From Paraflavitalea soli (lineage in GTDB: Bacteria > Bacteroidota > Bacteroidia > Chitinophagales > Chitinophagaceae), in assembly GCF_003555545.1 (NCBI RefSeq), contig NZ_CP032157.1, positions 6,080,546 through 6,144,545 of the forward strand: a DNA stretch of 64,000 nt, given 5' to 3'. The position numbers and the translations under genes were made by a program. Shown here piece by piece: positions 2,774 through 51,357 of the stretch. Under the pieces are notes generated by a model. That model saw nothing but the letters and a program-made list of their open reading frames with translations, was not told the origin of the DNA and made no database searches. Numbering within the stretch: position 1 is the first letter of the stretch; each line of letters begins with the position of its first letter.

Positions 2774-2818
2774 CCGCGGCAGCAACTCAAAACACGAAAC
2801 CCAAAACTCGTAACCCGA
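2774..2818. repeat. CGCGGCAGC leader plus five A/C-rich heptads
   Basis: After CCGCGGCAGC (2774-2783) come five 7-base units in strict phase: AACTCAA, AACACGA, AACCCAA, AACTCGT, AACCCGA. The array ends 8 bp before the promoter box of the CDGSH gene. The same leader precedes heptads at 3431 and 44827. The function is unknown. Confidence 0.75.
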
Positions 2819-3099: not shown

Positions 3100-3385
3100 A
3101 GATCGAATCAAAGGGTATTCTTGCCCCATCGGAGCTTGTCCCGCAACAGCGGGAGCTACCGCTTTGTAGCAAGGAAGATCGTATCAACGGGTTTTCTGCC
3201 CCTTTAGGGGCTACCGCTTTGTAGAAGGAAGATCGTATCAACGGGTTTCCCTGCCCCTTTAGGGGCTACCGCTTTGTAGCCAATCGAATCAAAGGGTATT
3301 CTTGCCCCATCGGGGCTACCGCTTTGTAGCAATGAATGTGATCAAATTCATTATTTGCCCCATCGGGGCTACCCGTCTGCAACAA
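3100..3385. repeat. Degenerate 50-55 bp direct repeats with paired hairpins
   Basis: The spacer 3077-3518 holds no gene. It carries five to six copies of a unit of the form GATCGTATCAACGGGTTT, then TGCCCCTTTAGGGGCTA, then CCGCTTTGTAG. GCTTTGTAG recurs at 3161, 3216, 3271 and 3321, so the period is 55, 55 and 50 bases. Each unit contains a GCCCC/GGGGC palindrome and a CTAC/GTAG pair, so a transcript would form a row of short hairpins. Two sequence variants alternate (CCCCTTTAGGGG and CCCCATCGGGG). The whole unit is conserved, so this is not a CRISPR array. Confidence 0.8.
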
Positions 3386-3430: not shown

Positions 3431-3475
3431 CCGCGGCAGCAATCCTATATCCTAAATCCTGCATCCGGAATCCCT
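3431..3475. repeat. CGCGGCAGC leader plus five heptads
   Basis: CCGCGGCAGC (3431-3440) is followed by AATCCTA, TATCCTA, AATCCTG, CATCCGG and AATCCCT in strict 7-base phase. The 15 bases up to and including the leader (ACTACAAACCGCGGC) closely resemble the DNA before the array at 2774, which indicates a shared origin. Confidence 0.75.
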
Positions 3476-8992: not shown

Positions 8993-9049
8993 CTTAAGGA
9001 AATAGGGTGGGTCACCCTGCGTGTGGGTTTGTGCCCGGAAGGGGTGGCT

Positions 9050-9219
9050 CACCCTTCTTTGCTGTGTCGCCTCACCCTTCTCTGTCGTGTCAAATCCCCC
9101 TTCTTTGTAATGTCGAATCCCCCTTCTTTGTCATGTCGAATCCTCCTTCTTTGTCATGTCGACCGCAGGGAGACATCCGCTATCGAAGCAAACGCACTGC
9201 CGACTGCCGATTGCCGTCC
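9050..9219. repeat. Composite element A: five 23-bp repeats, core, GCCGATT heptads
   Basis: Five consecutive 23-bp units occupy 9050-9164 (later units of the form CCCCCTTCTTTGTCATGTCG plus AAT). The last runs into GACCGCAGGGAG, then CTATCGAAGCAAACGCACTGC, broken here as CTATCGAAGC and AAACGCACTGC, and finally three heptads GCCGACT, GCCGATT, GCCGTCC (9199-9219). The next base starts the stop codon of the helicase gene. A second copy with the same order of parts is at 10601-10837. The DNA before it (9003-9050) has imperfect GGGTGGGTCACCC-type palindromes. Confidence 0.8.
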
Positions 9220-10600: not shown

Positions 10601-10837
10601 CCCCTTCCTTGTCATTCCGGTCATCTTGTAGTTATTCCGGCCGCCCTGTACTCATTCCGATCGCGCTCTGTCATTCCGGTCGTTTTGTAGCTATTCCGTC
10701 GTCTTGCAGTCCTTCCGACCCCCTTATTGTCCTTCCGATCCCCTTATTGTCATCCCGACCGCAGGGAGGGATCTGCTATCGAAACAAAAGTTTTCGAAGC
10801 AAACGCACTGCTGATTCTCGAACGCCGATTGCCGACT
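10601..10837. repeat. Composite element B: eight 20-bp repeats, core, GCCGATT heptads
   Basis: Eight 20-bp units fill 10601-10760, each ending in a variant of GTCATTCCGACC. They lead into GACCGCAGGGAGGGATCTGC, then a TATCGAA segment that is partly duplicated around ACAAAAGTTTT, then GAAGCAAACGCACTGC, and end in heptads GCCGATT and GCCGACT (10824-10837). The last base is the first base of the stop codon (TCA on this strand) of the 143-residue gene. Order and core match element A at 9050. Cores of the GTCATCCCGACCGCAGGGAG type are known as dispersed repeats in Bacteroidota genomes. Confidence 0.8.
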
Positions 10838-11589: not shown

Positions 11590-11720
11590 AAGATAAAATT
11601 TTTAGGGATATGCCAGCAAGGCATACAGTAAAGATCGGCCTTGCCTACCTGTAAGATATGTTAAAATATAGACCCTCTCTCTCCTCCAGATCCCCTAAAT
11701 CCAAAAAATCCAGGTTCAGA

Positions 11721-16267: not shown

Positions 16268-19144
16268 TTAGTGCGCCACCAGCCAGTTCTCACCCTTGCC
16301 GATCTCTGCTTCCACCGGCACCCCATTGGGTAATGGCAAAGCTCCACGCATACAATCTATGATAATCGGCATAATAGTATCTGCTTCATCCAGCGTAGCA
16401 TCAAAGATCAACTCGTCATGCACCTGCAGGATCATCTTCGATTTAAACTTATGTTTTTTGAACGTTTCCTGGATCTTTATCATGGCCAGCTTGATCATAT
16501 CAGCCGCCGTGCCCTGAATAGGCGAGTTGATCGCGTTGCGCTCTGCAAATCCACGTACTGTAAAGTTGGAGGAGTTGATATCACGCAGCCAGCGCTTGCG
16601 GCCCATCAACGTTTCCACATAGCCTGTTTCCCGGGCAAAGTTGATCGTATCATCCATATACTTCTGGATATTCGCAAACTGCTTCTTATACGTATCAATG
16701 ATCTCTTTGGCTTCCGTACGGCTGATACCCAGGTTGTCGGCCAGGCCAAAAGCTCCTTGCCCGTAGATAATGCCGAAATTCACACTCTTCGCCTTATAGC
16801 GCATTTCCTTCGTCACATCCTTTTCATCCACACTGTATACTTTGGCCGCAGTAGCTGTGTGAATATCCTTTGCATTCTTGAAAGCATCACACATGGCCGG
16901 GTCACCTGAAATAGCGGCTACAATACGTAATTCTATTTGCGAATAATCGGCCGAAAGCAGGATATGATTACTGTCCCGGGGAATAAAGGCCTTACGGATC
17001 TCTTTGCCCCTGTCTGTACGTACAGGAATATTCTGCAGGTTGGGATTGTTACTGGATAAACGACCGGTAACAGCCACCGCCTGTGCATAAGATGTATGTA
17101 CACGGCCTGTCTTGCGGTTGATCATTTCGGGAAGCGCATCCACATAAGTAGACTTCAGCTTGGTCAACTCCCGGAAGGCAAGGATATCTTCCACGATCTT
17201 ACTTTGATTGGCCAGCTTAAGCAGTACATCTTCCCCTGTAGCATATTGGCCCGTCTTCGTCTTTTTGGCCTTGGGGTCCAGCTTCAGTTTTTCAAACAAT
17301 ACTTCACCCAGTTGCTTGGGAGAGGCCAGGTTGAACTTTAATCCTGCTTGCTGGTATACATTTTCCTCTGCCTGCCTGGCTTCCTTATCCAGTTGCAGCG
17401 AATAATCTTTTAAGAACTCGATATCTACCTTTACCCCTTCAAACTCCATATCTGTAAGCACCTTTACAAGCGGGTTCTCTACTTCCAGGAATACCTTTTC
17501 AACTGCTTTCGTTTTGAGCAGCGGGGCAAAGATCTGTTTCAGCTGCAGCGTGATATCAGCATCTTCAGCCGCATAGTCCGTGATCTTTTCCAGTGGCACA
17601 TCCCGCATATTACCCTGGTTCTTGCCTTTCTTGCCAATCAGCTCATCAATATGTACCGGCTCGTAACCCAAATATTGTGCGCTCATGATATCCATGCTAC
17701 GTTTGCCGTCCGGCTCGATCACATAATGCGCCAGCATCGTATCAAAGATGTTTCCCTTCAGCTCATAGCCATACCACTTAAGCACCAGCATATCATACTT
17801 CAGGTTCTGTCCCACCCAGGTAATATCCGTCTTGTTGAATAATTTTTCAAATTGTTTCAGGATGGCCTTGGTGCCTTCCACGTCGCCGGGCGGCACCGGT
17901 ACATAATACGCTTCTCCAACTGTATAGGAGAAGCTCATACCCACCATGTCCGCATCATTCGCATCTAATCCCGTAGTCTCTGTATCAAAACAAACTTCCG
18001 GCTGCTCCAGTAATTCTTTTACCAGTGTCGTAATGGCCGCATCGCCTGTGATGGCAACATATTTATGAGGCGTATTGTGAATCGTCTTTCCGGCCACAAT
18101 AGCCTCCGTGCTGTCTACCCGTTCGCTGTCTGCCCCTTCTGTCTCCGTGCCTGCGCCTTCTGTATGCTGTATTCTGACTTCTGTATTCTTCTTCTTGCTT
18201 TCCACTGGATTGCCAAACAGATCTGTCTGCACGCCCTCCGGTGCCGTTGCCTTCCCGGCCGTGATAGCGATCTCTTCGCCCAGTACCCGCTTGGCTACTG
18301 TTTTAAATTCCAGGTCCGTAAACACTTCACGCAACAACTCCCGGTTCATTTCCTTTACCCGGAAATCCTCTGCATGAAAACTTACCGGTACATCTGTAAT
18401 AATAGTAGCCAGCTTTTTGGAAAGGATAGCCGCATTCTTTCCGTTGCGTACCTTCTCACCCAAAGCCCCTTTGATCTTATCTGCATTGTTCAACACATTT
18501 TCCAGCGTACCATATTCGGCCAGTAGTTTAGCCGCTGTCTTTTCTCCTACCCCGGCAATGCCGGGTATATTATCCACCGAATCTCCCATAAGGCCCAGTA
18601 TATCTATCACCTGGTGTACTTCCTGGATATTCCATTTCTCACATACTTCTTTCACGCCCAGGATCTCCGCATCCCCGCCCTGGTAACCGGGTTTATAGAT
18701 CTTGACCCTTTCCTCCACCAATTGGCCATAGTCCTTATCGGGCGTTACCATGTATACTTCAAATCCTTCTTTGGCAGCTTGCTTACTCAGCGTGCCGATC
18801 ACGTCATCCGCTTCATAGCCATCCAGTTCTACAATAGGTATATTAAAGCCACGTATGATGCGCTTAATATCGGGAATAGCTGCCTTCAGATCTTCAGGTG
18901 TCTCCTGCCGGTTGGCCTTGTATTCTGCAAAGTCTGTATGTCGCTCCGTAGGAGCACTGGTATCAAACGCCACCGCCATATGTGAGGGCTTCTGGTTGTT
19001 GAGCAGATCAAGCAACGTATTGACAAAACCGAACTGAGCATTTGTGTTTACGCCCTTGGAGGTAATACGTGGATTGCGTATCAATGCATAATAGGCACGG
19101 AATACCAATGCATACGCGTCGAGAAGAAATACTTTTTGACTCAT
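16268..19144 (-). CDS. polA: DNA polymerase I
   Basis: This encodes 958 residues in three domains. The 5'-3' nuclease (1-290) has DAYALVFRAYYAL, DGYEADDVIGTL and GDSVDNIPGIAGVGEKTA. The 3'-5' proofreading domain (about 365-545) keeps its metal-binding DTETTGLD, so it should be active, unlike Taq polymerase. The polymerase domain (about 560-958) has DYSQIELR, the O-helix region KSVNFGIIYG and HDELIF. The enzyme fills gaps in repair and removes Okazaki primers. It lies downstream of uvrB on the same strand, separated by 81 bp and a terminator. The linker around residues 318-345 is unusual: it is encoded by twelve in-phase 7-base repeats and is rich in Thr, Glu, Gly and Ser (TEGAGTETEGADSE). Confidence 0.97.
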   Translation of the reverse strand: MSQKVFLLDAYALVFRAYYALIRNPRITSKGVNTNAQFGFVNTLLDLLNNQKPSHMAVAFDTSAPTERHTDFAEYKANRQETPEDLKAAIPDIKRIIRGFNIPIVELDGYEADDVIGTLSKQAAKEGFEVYMVTPDKDYGQLVEERVKIYKPGYQGGDAEILGVKEVCEKWNIQEVHQVIDILGLMGDSVDNIPGIAGVGEKTAAKLLAEYGTLENVLNNADKIKGALGEKVRNGKNAAILSKKLATIITDVPVSFHAEDFRVKEMNRELLREVFTDLEFKTVAKRVLGEEIAITAGKATAPEGVQTDLFGNPVESKKKNTEVRIQHTEGAGTETEGADSERVDSTEAIVAGKTIHNTPHKYVAITGDAAITTLVKELLEQPEVCFDTETTGLDANDADMVGMSFSYTVGEAYYVPVPPGDVEGTKAILKQFEKLFNKTDITWVGQNLKYDMLVLKWYGYELKGNIFDTMLAHYVIEPDGKRSMDIMSAQYLGYEPVHIDELIGKKGKNQGNMRDVPLEKITDYAAEDADITLQLKQIFAPLLKTKAVEKVFLEVENPLVKVLTDMEFEGVKVDIEFLKDYSLQLDKEARQAEENVYQQAGLKFNLASPKQLGEVLFEKLKLDPKAKKTKTGQYATGEDVLLKLANQSKIVEDILAFRELTKLKSTYVDALPEMINRKTGRVHTSYAQAVAVTGRLSSNNPNLQNIPVRTDRGKEIRKAFIPRDSNHILLSADYSQIELRIVAAISGDPAMCDAFKNAKDIHTATAAKVYSVDEKDVTKEMRYKAKSVNFGIIYGQGAFGLADNLGISRTEAKEIIDTYKKQFANIQKYMDDTINFARETGYVETLMGRKRWLRDINSSNFTVRGFAERNAINSPIQGTAADMIKLAMIKIQETFKKHKFKSKMILQVHDELIFDATLDEADTIMPIIIDCMRGALPLPNGVPVEAEIGKGENWLVAH
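18111..18194. repeat. Heptad repeat array inside the polA coding region
   Basis: Twelve 7-base units in unbroken phase, plus-strand reading: CTGTCTA, CCCGTTC, GCTGTCT, GCCCCTT, CTGTCTC, CGTGCCT, GCGCCTT, CTGTATG, CTGTATT, CTGACTT, CTGTATT, CTTCTTC. Three units make 21 bases, so the array translates as an approximate 7-residue repeat (TEGAGTE, TEGADSE). It falls exactly in the flexible linker between the 5' nuclease and proofreading domains of PolA. Confidence 0.8.
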
Positions 19145-21478: not shown

Positions 21479-21513
21479 AACCCTAAACACCAAACTCAAA
21501 ACCCGAAACCGAT
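21479..21513. repeat. A/C heptad array abutting the mgsA stop codon
   Basis: Five units in strict phase: AACCCTA, AACACCA, AACTCAA, AACCCGA, AACCGAT. The next base starts the CTA that is the mgsA TAG stop. Read in the mgsA direction, the 3' flank is G/T-rich (CGGGTTT, GAGTTT, GTTTAGGG) and resembles telomere-type heptads. Confidence 0.8.
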
Positions 21514-21975
21514 CTACTTATTCTCGATCCTCCTTTTCAGGTACTCCGTATAATCCGGTAATGTAGCCGCGTAGTCAGACTGCATAAGGGGGGAGGTTAG
21601 TACAAAATCCGCCGTCGACCGGTCGCAGGCCACAATGCAATTCCAGGCAATCGCTACCCGGAGCAAGGCCTTTACATCACTATCATGTGGTTGCGCTTCC
21701 ATGGGGTCCCAGAAAAAGATCATGACATCGATTTCTCCAACTGCTATGAGGGCGCCTATTTGTTGGTCGCCGCCCAGCGGACCGCTTAACAGCCTCTTGA
21801 CAGGGCGGTCCAGCTTTTCTTCCAGCAATTTTCCCGTCGTGCCGGTGGCTATCAGCTCATGTTTGGCCAATACAACCTTGTTGAACTCTGCCCAGTCTAT
21901 CAGGTCCTTCTTCTTGTTATCATGCGCTACCAGTGCAATTCGCTTACGCGCATCTATTCGTCTTGATGTCAACAT
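21514..21975 (-). CDS. mgsA: Methylglyoxal synthase
   Basis: This encodes 153 residues from the ATG at 21975, matching the 152 residues of E. coli MgsA; the frame extends 14 codons further but that part does not fit the family. The enzyme turns dihydroxyacetone phosphate into methylglyoxal and phosphate, a glycolytic bypass used when sugar phosphates accumulate. Visible signatures are [17 protein letters not shown] (catalytic Asp near residue 18), TGTTG and [12 protein letters not shown] (phosphate binding and catalytic Asp), and [20 protein letters not shown] (catalytic His). It is a cytoplasmic homohexamer in known cases. It stands alone, followed directly by a heptad repeat. Confidence 0.95.
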
Positions 21976-27621: not shown

Positions 27622-27682
27622 AACGAAGGTGGGTCGCCTTTCCAAGGCGGCTCACCTTTTCAAGGCGGCTCACCTTCGTTAT
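27622..27682. repeat. Inverted repeat with two 18-bp tandem units
   Basis: AACGAAGGTGGGTCGCC (27622 onward) and GGCGGCTCACCTTCGTT form imperfect inverted arms. Between them lie two near-identical 18-bp units, CCTTTCCAAGGCGGCTCA and CCTTTTCAAGGCGGCTCA. It sits between the converging OmpA and hydrolase genes. Related GGGTGAGC/GCTCACCC sequences occur at 9003-9050 and 48509. Confidence 0.7.
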
Positions 27683-44826: not shown

Positions 44827-44870
44827 CGCGGCAGCAACCCGGAACGTAAAACCCGGGACCCGGAACGCTT
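44827..44870. repeat. CGCGGCAGC leader plus heptads abutting a stop codon
   Basis: CGCGGCAGC (44827-44835) is followed by AACCCGG, AACGTAA, AACCCGG, GACCCGG, AACGCTT in phase (44836-44870). The last unit overlaps the first two bases of TTA, the stop codon of the minus-strand gene beginning at 45084. It has the same leader as the arrays at 2774 and 3431. Confidence 0.8.
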
Positions 44871-45084
44871 AAGACGCAATATCCTTATTGAAAGAAATAC
44901 TTTCTATGAACTGTTTCACTTCTTCTGTACTTCTATTCATCTTTCTCGCCAACCGATCCAATAAAGCATCTTCATGCCCTTCTTCATAGGCGAGGTCCTC
45001 ATCGGTAAGCCCGATAACTCTTTCCTTGATCTTTTCCTTTACTTCCTCCCAGGGAGCGTGTAAGGTAAGTTTGTTGTTTTCCAT
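44869..45084 (-). CDS. CsbD-like small protein
   Basis: This encodes 71 residues from the ATG at 45084; the frame extends seven codons upstream. The core PWEEVKEKIKERVIGLTDEDLAYEEGHEDALLDRL resembles the CsbD family (W-x3-K-x-K-x4-LTDDDL-x4-G), small stress proteins of unknown mechanism, although the spacing is not identical and the C-terminal part (NRSTEEVKQFIESISF) is an additional helix. Cytoplasmic by lack of signal. Its stop codon touches the heptad array at 44827. Confidence 0.7.
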   Translation of the reverse strand: MENNKLTLHAPWEEVKEKIKERVIGLTDEDLAYEEGHEDALLDRLARKMNRSTEEVKQFIESISFNKDIAS

Positions 45085-45129
45085 ACTTACCTGCATGCAA
45101 TACACAGGCCACCCAATTATTTGAAAGTC

Positions 45130-45259
45130 AGCTATTAGCTGTTAGCTCTTAGGTATTAGCAAGGCAAAACTTGTCCCGCTCCACGGGAAGCGCTAGAAGC
45201 CAACTATACCTGGTGGCGAAGCAGAGGCCTTAACAGCTAAAGCCTAAAAGCTAATGCCT
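45130..45259. repeat. 130-bp element with inverted heptad arms
   Basis: The left arm has units AGCTATT, AGCTGTT, AGCTCTT, AGGTATT, AGCAAGG (45130-45164). The right arm has AACAGCT, AAAGCCT, AAAAGCT, AATGCCT (45232-45259), the reverse complement type. A 67-bp centre contains a CCCGCTCCACGGG hairpin. The element lies between the divergent CsbD-like and SNF2 helicase genes. The two arms could pair over about 30 bp. Confidence 0.75.
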
Positions 45260-51331: not shown

Positions 51332-51357
51332 ACCCATTGCCGATTGCCGATTGCCGC
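51332..51357. repeat. GCCGATT heptads abutting the SusC stop codon
   Basis: AACCCATT is followed by GCCGATT, GCCGATT and GCCGC, then directly by CTA, the SusC stop codon. The unit is the same as at the ends of composite elements A and B. Confidence 0.75.

Follow-up and report, generated by a model that had tools for sequence, protein, structure and literature searches.

Heptad arrays behind stop codons of Paraflavitalea soli as probable terminal arms of small elements carrying an IVP gene

The heptad arrays that follow stop codons in the genome of Paraflavitalea soli (G000) are very probably the terminal arms of elements of about 0.5 kb that carry an IVP gene, those of the window (the whole 64,000-nucleotide stretch of DNA analyzed here) being ORF-less remains; that arrays and IVP elements belong together, taken as a matter of identity alone, is held with greater confidence still. 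A typical full element consists of the host stop codon, a gap of about 0-10 nt, 3-5 G/T-rich heptads, an IVP ORF co-directional with the host gene and the same heptads in inverted orientation, after which the next gene follows. For the arrays of the window, the best reading is that of ORF-less pairs or lone arms, which such elements either left behind or helped to spread.

The period-7 signal was measured in the window and in 40 stretches of 20 kb at even spacing, together 864 kb of the 8.44-Mb single-contig genome, in which 595 genes were called with a simple coding-potential script and base matching was calculated per lag in intergenic DNA (gene calls throughout this work come from a simple caller or from long ORFs rather than from curated annotation). 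Past stop codons, the excess of lag-7 matching over neighboring lags was +0.038 in the first 15-nt bin and +0.036 in the second (12,593 positions), and upstream of start codons it was -0.005 and +0.006 in the corresponding bins; in later post-stop bins the excess ranged from -0.022 to +0.046, the top value falling in the smallest bin. Scored as arrays (lag-7 segments scoring ≥12), 31 intergenic runs were registered, of which 18 lay ≤20 nt from a stop codon and 2 lay ≤20 nt from a start codon. The same scoring at control lags 5, 6, 9, 10 and 13 returned 0-2 arrays each, with 9 at lag 8 and 6 at lag 11, and when 31 arrays were placed at random in intergenic DNA, 2.27 on average fell near stops (at most 8 in any of 1000 trials). 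The post-stop excess, the array counts and the random placement together make the observation valid genome-wide: lag 7 is enriched next to stop codons relative to other intergenic DNA, as the preliminary description of this DNA had asserted, and the real repeat family that it proposed, with a period independent of unit sequence and a placement at stop codons, stands well above chance. The minus-strand position of the genes that it listed is not a rule, since arrays elsewhere in the sample trail stops on both strands, and its strict 7-base period holds for the arrays it named, although the genome also carries period-8 arrays.

The nine period-8 arrays of this sample (AGTCCGGA- and GGCAACGA-like) lie in L012, L016, L019, L027, L028, L031 and L048, and despite their presence octad arms are absent from all four IVP loci of the genome; six period-11 arrays, for example with TCCGAGTTTGG units, were also seen (L018, L024, L043, L044). 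Among the sites listed, CGGCAAT arrays on the G000 chromosome are oriented 16+/5- below 3.87 Mb and 5+/22- above it (P = 1e-4, with the boundary picked post hoc), and the listed AGAAT sites lean the opposite way (11+/18- below, 14+/7- above). GC skew of the G000 sample showed no clear origin.

Arrays at five stop codons of the window had been named in the preliminary description (Table 1). Those at 21513, 9219 and 51357 are clear, with 3-4 units, whereas the one at 44870 is short and the one at 10837 degenerate; at a sixth site, the asparaginase gene at 11720, the signal was too weak for confirmation, and the label "CsbD-like" given to ORF 44869-45105 is not borne out by any Pfam match at E ≤ 1e-4. 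The site orthologous to the mgsA array was empty by eye in all four congeners, the array being present in G000 only. Two ORF-less arrays of different class, GGATNNN (3439-3473) and TTTCGGG-class (2787-2807), have the identical inner sequence TTGCTGCCGCGGT.

Table 1. Heptad arrays in the window, with positions counted from its first nucleotide
Array	Position	Strand	Context
Heptads GTTTCGG-GTTTTGA-GTTTGGT-GTTTAGG, ORF-less, TTTCGGG class	21482..21509	-	Past mgsA stop (21514-21516); clear run
CGGCAAT x3	51336..51356	-	One base beyond stop of SusC-family gene; clear run; same unit as IVP element L052 of this genome
CGGCAAT-CGGCAGT-CGGCAGT	9196..9216	-	Past DEAD-box helicase stop; clear run
Degenerate CGGCAAT-class array	10810..10836	-	Reaches stop of 143-residue protein; below 3-unit threshold
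Short CGGGTNN array, 2 strict units	44849..44862	-	By stop of 78-residue ORF; subterminal motif GGTTGCTGCCGC at 44828-44839
Left arm of ORF-less inverted pair, TTAGCNN class	45130..45159	+	Lag-7 scan
Right arm of same TTAGCNN-class inverted pair	45231..45259	-	Partner of 45130..45159
GGATNNN array, 5 units, leading into TTGCTGCCGCGGT	3439..3473	-	
GTTTNNN (TTTCGGG-class) array, leading into TTGCTGCCGCGGT	2787..2807	-	
AGAATNN array, 3 units, 21 nt	18169..18189	-	Inside polA (DNA polymerase I), between exonuclease domains

Other repeats occur in the window as well. Tandem repeats of 20-23 bp (GTCATTCCGACC-like; 9049-9162 and 10611-10760) adjoin the core GACCGCAGGGAG.GATCTGCTATCGAA and CGGCAAT heptads, and composites like these, found in other stretches of the genome too, are REP-like, with an interior that is not IVP-like. 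Repeats of 55 bp with TTTAGGGG..CTACCGCTTTGTAG (3155-3329), similar to sequence in L033 after 12771, represent another dispersed repeat family, and an 18-bp tandem repeat, AAGGCGGCTCACCTTTCC (27626-27676), has a similar sequence, GGCTCACC, in L030.

The array-bearing intergenic regions include inverted pairs, one of which encloses an ORF for an IVP (PF05635). A whole-genome search returned four IVP matches in G000, all above the PF05635 cut-off and all four over that of TIGR02436. Each of the four genes (4/4) sits between protein genes and has inverted heptad arms, with the units AGAATNN, CGAGCTG-like, GGATNNN and CGGCAAT/GT, and these arm classes recur in many ORF-less arrays genome-wide, including most arrays of the window. 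Over a set of 109 loci (113 minus 4 at contig ends), arms with at least 3 units upstream and at least 3 reverse-complement units downstream were found at 65 loci for spacing 7, compared with 1-2 for spacings 5, 6, 9, 10 and 11, 16 for spacing 8 and 13-17 for random cross-locus pairs of arms. The 65 paired elements have a median length of 491 bp (IQR of 454-529), too short for a transposase beside the IVP ORF. A left neighbor was called at 60 loci and was co-directional at 56 of them, and at 51/56 the left arm begins ≤20 nt past that neighbor's stop; at L168, the IVP gene is antiparallel to the neighboring nrd genes. Arms are mostly of 4-5 units (upstream, 4 in 33/65 and 5 in 14/65; downstream, 4 in 24/65 and 5 in 22/65), units have 4-5 near-constant and 2-3 variable positions, and the inward strand is G-rich and C-poor (G>C at 59/65 loci, G<C at 5/65). 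The four G000 IVPs gave no match to a transposase family in NCBIfam or to a PADLOC defence family, and no target-site duplication was evident by eye at the gltX-, SDR- and hisB-type loci, where the congeners have diverged.

IVP genes were found in 45 of 60 genomes of the same family, each from another genus. At 33 loci (4 from G000, 29 from other genera), lag-7 segments scoring ≥9 were present upstream at 18 and downstream at 24, while lags 5, 6 and 9-12 gave 0-1 and lag 8 gave 2 upstream and 4 downstream. In a scan of named bacterial genomes, the best 80 of 588 IVP loci were taken by similarity to the query and are hence mostly Bacteroidota; among these 80, lag-7 segments scoring ≥9 occupied both flanks at 17/56 loci of Bacteroidota and at 12/24 of other phyla, and array-flanked IVP genes came from Planctomycetes, Acidobacteria, Gamma- and Alphaproteobacteria, Clostridia and Ignavibacteria. 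Flanks that scored at lag 7 numbered 77/155 within 300 nt of an IVP gene vs 33/443 at 600-1700 nt, a distant background that is raised. At 22 loci on viral contigs, some of them near-copies, lag 7 scored 18 times upstream and 13 times downstream and other lags 0-2 times. Twelve of 29 plasmid matches were fetched (eleven from cyanobacteria, one from Gemmatimonadota), and at these loci arrays adjoin the IVP gene, some being short or clear on one flank only, with GGGAGTA, GGGAACA and similar arrays on Nostoc plasmids. The plasmid IVP genes were located between nrdB and nrdA, between cas10 and cmr3 (L170, on a Picosynechococcus plasmid) and between cas6 and cas4 (L176, on a Pseudanabaena plasmid). 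IVP genes inside cas loci are also reported, in a passage that offers no explanation, in PMC3936711; they may have inserted there and not belong to the CRISPR system. One element was found at the identical locus across six genera, and some IVP elements are old. Two Acido-Lenti-1 RNAs lie near the KSB1 IVP locus L128 (3007-3052 and 3580-3625). A scan of 20 heptad-poor IVP loci found no match to rRNA, which leaves the idea of such IVPs as rRNA insertions unsupported for these loci; many carry period-8 arrays instead.

Inverted octads flank many of the IVP loci that lack heptads. Periods were scored over 140 loci, drawn from a broad range of phyla as well as from plasmids of cyanobacteria and from viral contigs; this set omits the 4 contig-end loci, 7/22 viral loci (each duplicating the arrays of a retained locus), 17/29 plasmid matches and 4/8 newly fetched congener loci (orthologues of kept ones). 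Period 7 scored at 93 loci and period 8 at 20, with 0, 1, 1, 0 and 1 for periods 5, 6, 9, 10 and 11, and assignment gave 90 loci of period 7, 18 of period 8 and 32 of neither. On a FastTree phylogeny of IVP proteins, which is built on few columns and has many forks of low support, period changed 11 times vs 16.9 times when shuffled (0 or 1 of 500 shuffles as low). One group of 11 rows (fork support of 84), drawn from Bacteroidota, Nitrospirae, KSB1 and Syntrophaceae (taxa as labelled), comprises 8 period-8, 3 unassigned and 0 period-7 loci; the clade that encloses it adds one period-7 row, and the remaining 10 of the 18 period-8 rows are scattered over the tree. Since in this group the period stays with the protein although the hosts differ, the IVP protein itself would seem to read the array. 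Unit similarity followed IVP identity only above about 50-60% (Mantel r = 0.20, 0/1000 permutations; pairs at ≤50% identity, r = 0.04, 240/1000), and a strict IVP-to-unit code is weakly supported by these values.

Within the genus, no IVP match was found in two of the four congeners (G061 and G063). With 800 kb sampled from G000 and 200 kb from each other genome (arrays defined as lag-7 segments scoring ≥11), four IVP-bearing genomes held 37, 8, 48 and 6 arrays (22-87 per 100 kb of intergenic DNA) and the IVP-free G061, G063 and G018 held 0, 0 and 1 (0, 0 and 2.1 per 100 kb); the post-stop lag-7 excess was +0.032, +0.032, +0.057 and +0.028 with IVP vs -0.004, +0.013 and +0.007 without. The IVP-bearing G004 and G055 also showed an excess before starts (+0.036 and +0.019), which right arms near starts may explain. 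Three further IVP-free genomes, sampled over 100, 100 and ∼44 kb, had 1 (A-rich), 2 (A/T-rich, G036) and 0 arrays (two short G039 pieces that read as N being excluded). The total for IVP-free genomes is thus four runs in ∼844 kb from six genomes, of which two are congeners. Exact counts over whole genomes, five from this genus, gave three consecutive CGGCART units 121 times in G000, 17 in G060, 5 in G062 and 0 in G061 and G063, and four consecutive AGAATNN units 134, 14, 14, 0 and 0 times in the same order; controls with the pattern written backwards gave 0, except for 4 of AGAAT in G062. G060 thus retains CGGCAAT and AGAAT arrays, and neither of its two IVPs uses those units, so either the cognate link between IVP and unit is loose or arrays can outlast their IVP. 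Plain polymerase slippage favoring 7-nt units, in which the IVP would have no role (Mrazek, as cited in the available part of PMC4679880), fits a copy number that varies, some arms being 10-15 units long. It is already disfavored and hardly credible beside the near-absence of arrays from the sampled IVP-free genomes, congeners included, the inverted pairing around a single gene family (65/109 loci) and the period 8 of a clade that spans four phyla.

Orthologous loci in the congeners were found filled, reduced or empty. At the hisB-type locus the element is present in G000 and G062, the site in G063 is empty with ten bases from stop to start, G060 has a lone arm and G061 a different upstream gene. 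The gltX locus has the full element in G000 only, with a small ORF-less pair in G060 and nothing in the three other congeners. At the SDR/DUF62 locus, an orthologous IVP is flanked by TTTCGGG-type arms in G060 and G062 and by GGATNNN arms on both sides in G000, and short spacers are found in the IVP-free G061 and G063. The end of the host protein is unchanged with vs without the element (SDR, gltX and hisB-neighbor loci), which indicates that insertion follows a pre-existing stop. The idea that the array supplies the stop codon was rejected (host ends unchanged; TAG at 21/52 junctions vs 32/107, P = 0.21). It has to be considered that arrays could be retained for a function at the 3′ end (as terminators, mRNA stabilizers or G-quadruplexes), with IVP genes merely using them, as the post-stop position of the arrays would allow, and GGGNATC arrays form G-quadruplexes in vitro, are transcribed and have a gene context conserved in two Xanthomonas species, according to the available part of PMC4692102. 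However, most units are by eye without a GGG run (TAAGTNN, AGAATNN, CGGCAAT), arrays are present or absent past the same gene among congeners, and IVP-free congeners manage without them, which makes this account unlikely.

The unit switch at the SDR/DUF62 locus, together with the two kinds of window array that share an inner sequence, suggests that both arms change unit together, and such a joint switch would need some array-homogenizing process; any strict code from protein to unit has to account for one orthologous IVP whose arms differ in unit between sister species. There is no need for a process in which 7-base units are extended at gene ends, as put forward in the preliminary description, where arrays are inverted ends of IVP elements and their ORF-less derivatives behind unchanged stops, though the idea of copying survives in part in the joint switch of both arms. 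The mechanism then envisaged, telomerase-like or reverse transcriptase (RT)-templated addition of the units, can draw on this switch and on the distant relationship, by weak scores, of IVP to Avd of diversity-generating retroelements; it is nevertheless very improbable, as elements of ∼0.5 kb are too small for an RT gene and RT genes (RVT_1) occur in 5/5 genomes of the genus regardless of IVP and arrays. Their occurrence in the IVP-free genomes means that no RT link is seen, and an RT partner was dropped as a candidate.

The arms could also act at the RNA level, as the closing stem of an mRNA insert comparable to that of 23S rRNA intervening sequences, with RNase III-like cleavage freeing the insert from between two genes and the IVP binding or chaperoning the RNA. 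In the single whole element folded (L049), the arms form the outer stem (z = -3.9). Of four ORF-less pairs, three fold strongly (z = -5.6, -4.5 and -5.9), whereas foldback is not strong for the fourth, the pair 45130-45159/45231-45259 of the window (z = -1.4). In addition, elements lie in sense orientation behind the left neighbor (56/60), and IVP ORFs are found in rRNA insertions (available part of PMC11270868). On the other side, variable columns of the two arms are alike at 0.668 in register vs 0.647 with units shuffled, so a perfect stem is not the conserved feature and covariation of the arms at free positions is unsupported; many arrays are single arms, and the IVP gene of L168 opposes its nrd neighbors. 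We therefore regard action at the RNA level as possible but rather doubtful.

Returning to the arrays as arms of IVP elements, the IVP is a four-helix-bundle protein (PF05635/TIGR02436) whose solved relatives, 2gsc (E = 6.6e-38) and 2rld (E = 4.8e-19), are assemblies of five chains each. The title of the 2gsc paper reportedly speaks of five four-helix bundles. The five chains, this title and the anatomy of the arms point to a pentamer with about one repeat per subunit, and binding of the array by such a pentamer, as DNA or as RNA, is putative. The pentamer would engage the arms through the 4-5 constant and 2-3 free bases of each unit, the bound IVP might mark or join the two ends of the element, and host enzymes or an unnamed partner would perform the chemistry; post-stop placement would owe something to targeting and something to the survival of copies that do no harm and are co-transcribed. 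On a more specific view, the IVP may be a ring-shaped repeat reader, the ring setting the period (7 or 8) as well as the copy number (4-5), pairing the arms and placing the element behind stops, perhaps guided by translation termination; this is quite possible, and we hold it tentatively, with somewhat less than even confidence. Several points stand against the arrays being arms of IVP elements: transposition was not observed directly and no target-site duplication was evident, no catalytic domain is known in IVP, and the 32/140 loci without assignable period and the 10/18 scattered period-8 loci do not favor this reading. The stability of arrays speaks for slow movement at best. If the IVP does act as a ring-shaped reader, the heptamer repeats long known from bacteria would form a single system of selfish elements measured by a protein. 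Once arrays and IVP are connected, separate puzzles become one testable one-gene element with a protein-specific repeat period, and an answer suggests itself to the old question of why bacterial DNA so often contains seven-base repeats.

The components of these elements are known, and the kind of element is new as far as the open-access literature was searched. Intervening sequences of 23S rRNA consist of an IVP ORF between complementary ends, an arrangement (PF05635/TIGR02436) that the elements share. Unlike them, the present elements lie behind stops of protein genes and outside rRNA (at the G000 loci and the 20 heptad-poor loci scanned), have ends of 3-5 tandem heptads or octads and have many ORF-less copies. 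Cyanobacterial STRR are heptamer repeats, and STRR, TAACTGA and GGGNATC repeats resemble the arrays in their tandem 7-nt units dispersed in intergenic DNA. The word "undescribed" in the preliminary description is accordingly too broad for the repeats, heptamers being known in cyanobacteria, Beggiatoaceae and Xanthomonas (PMC4679880, PMC4692102), and holds for their link to IVP, which was not found in print. In the available parts of these sources, TAACTGA heptamers of Beggiatoaceae lie mostly just upstream of starts and are proposed as translation signals (PMC4679880), and heptamers are followed across prokaryotes (PMC6344855). GGGNATC arrays of Xanthomonas and Nostoc are like those described here in lying near stops (on average 28 nt from the 5′ gene), in having mostly four units and in forming paired convergent arrays (70 cases in Xcc; few inverted pairs in Nostoc), and 83% of their context is common to two species, with no general association with mobile elements (available part of PMC4692102). 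The accessible passages on published heptamers differ in proposing translation signals, G-quadruplexes, phase variation or no function, and an IVP link was not found there: the text of PMC4679880 contains none of "four helix," "S23" or "intervening," that of PMC4692102 none of "xcc0516," "four helix" or "intervening," and among the papers listed in searches of the open-access literature none linked heptamers to IVP by title, abstract start or passage. The IVP domain is termed functionally uncharacterized in a passage of PMC11270868, and Avd of diversity-generating retroelements is said in one of PMC10053308 to be homologous to IVP. The Avd model NF033474 is a distant relative of the G000 IVPs, three of which score 17.7-25.9 bits (E of 1e-5 to 3e-3), below its equivalog cut-off of 80, the fourth being without a match. 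MITEs and ERIC-like repeats are short, inverted-ended, ORF-less copies that depend on an autonomous relative. The elements described here differ from them in ends made of unit-changing tandem arrays and in having no transposase and no visible target duplication, and resemble them in their short inverted-ended ORF-less intergenic copies, reliant on a related autonomous element; with MITEs and transposons they further share terminal inverted repeats (65/109 loci) and empty sites in relatives (the hisB-type and gltX loci and, for an ORF-less array, mgsA).
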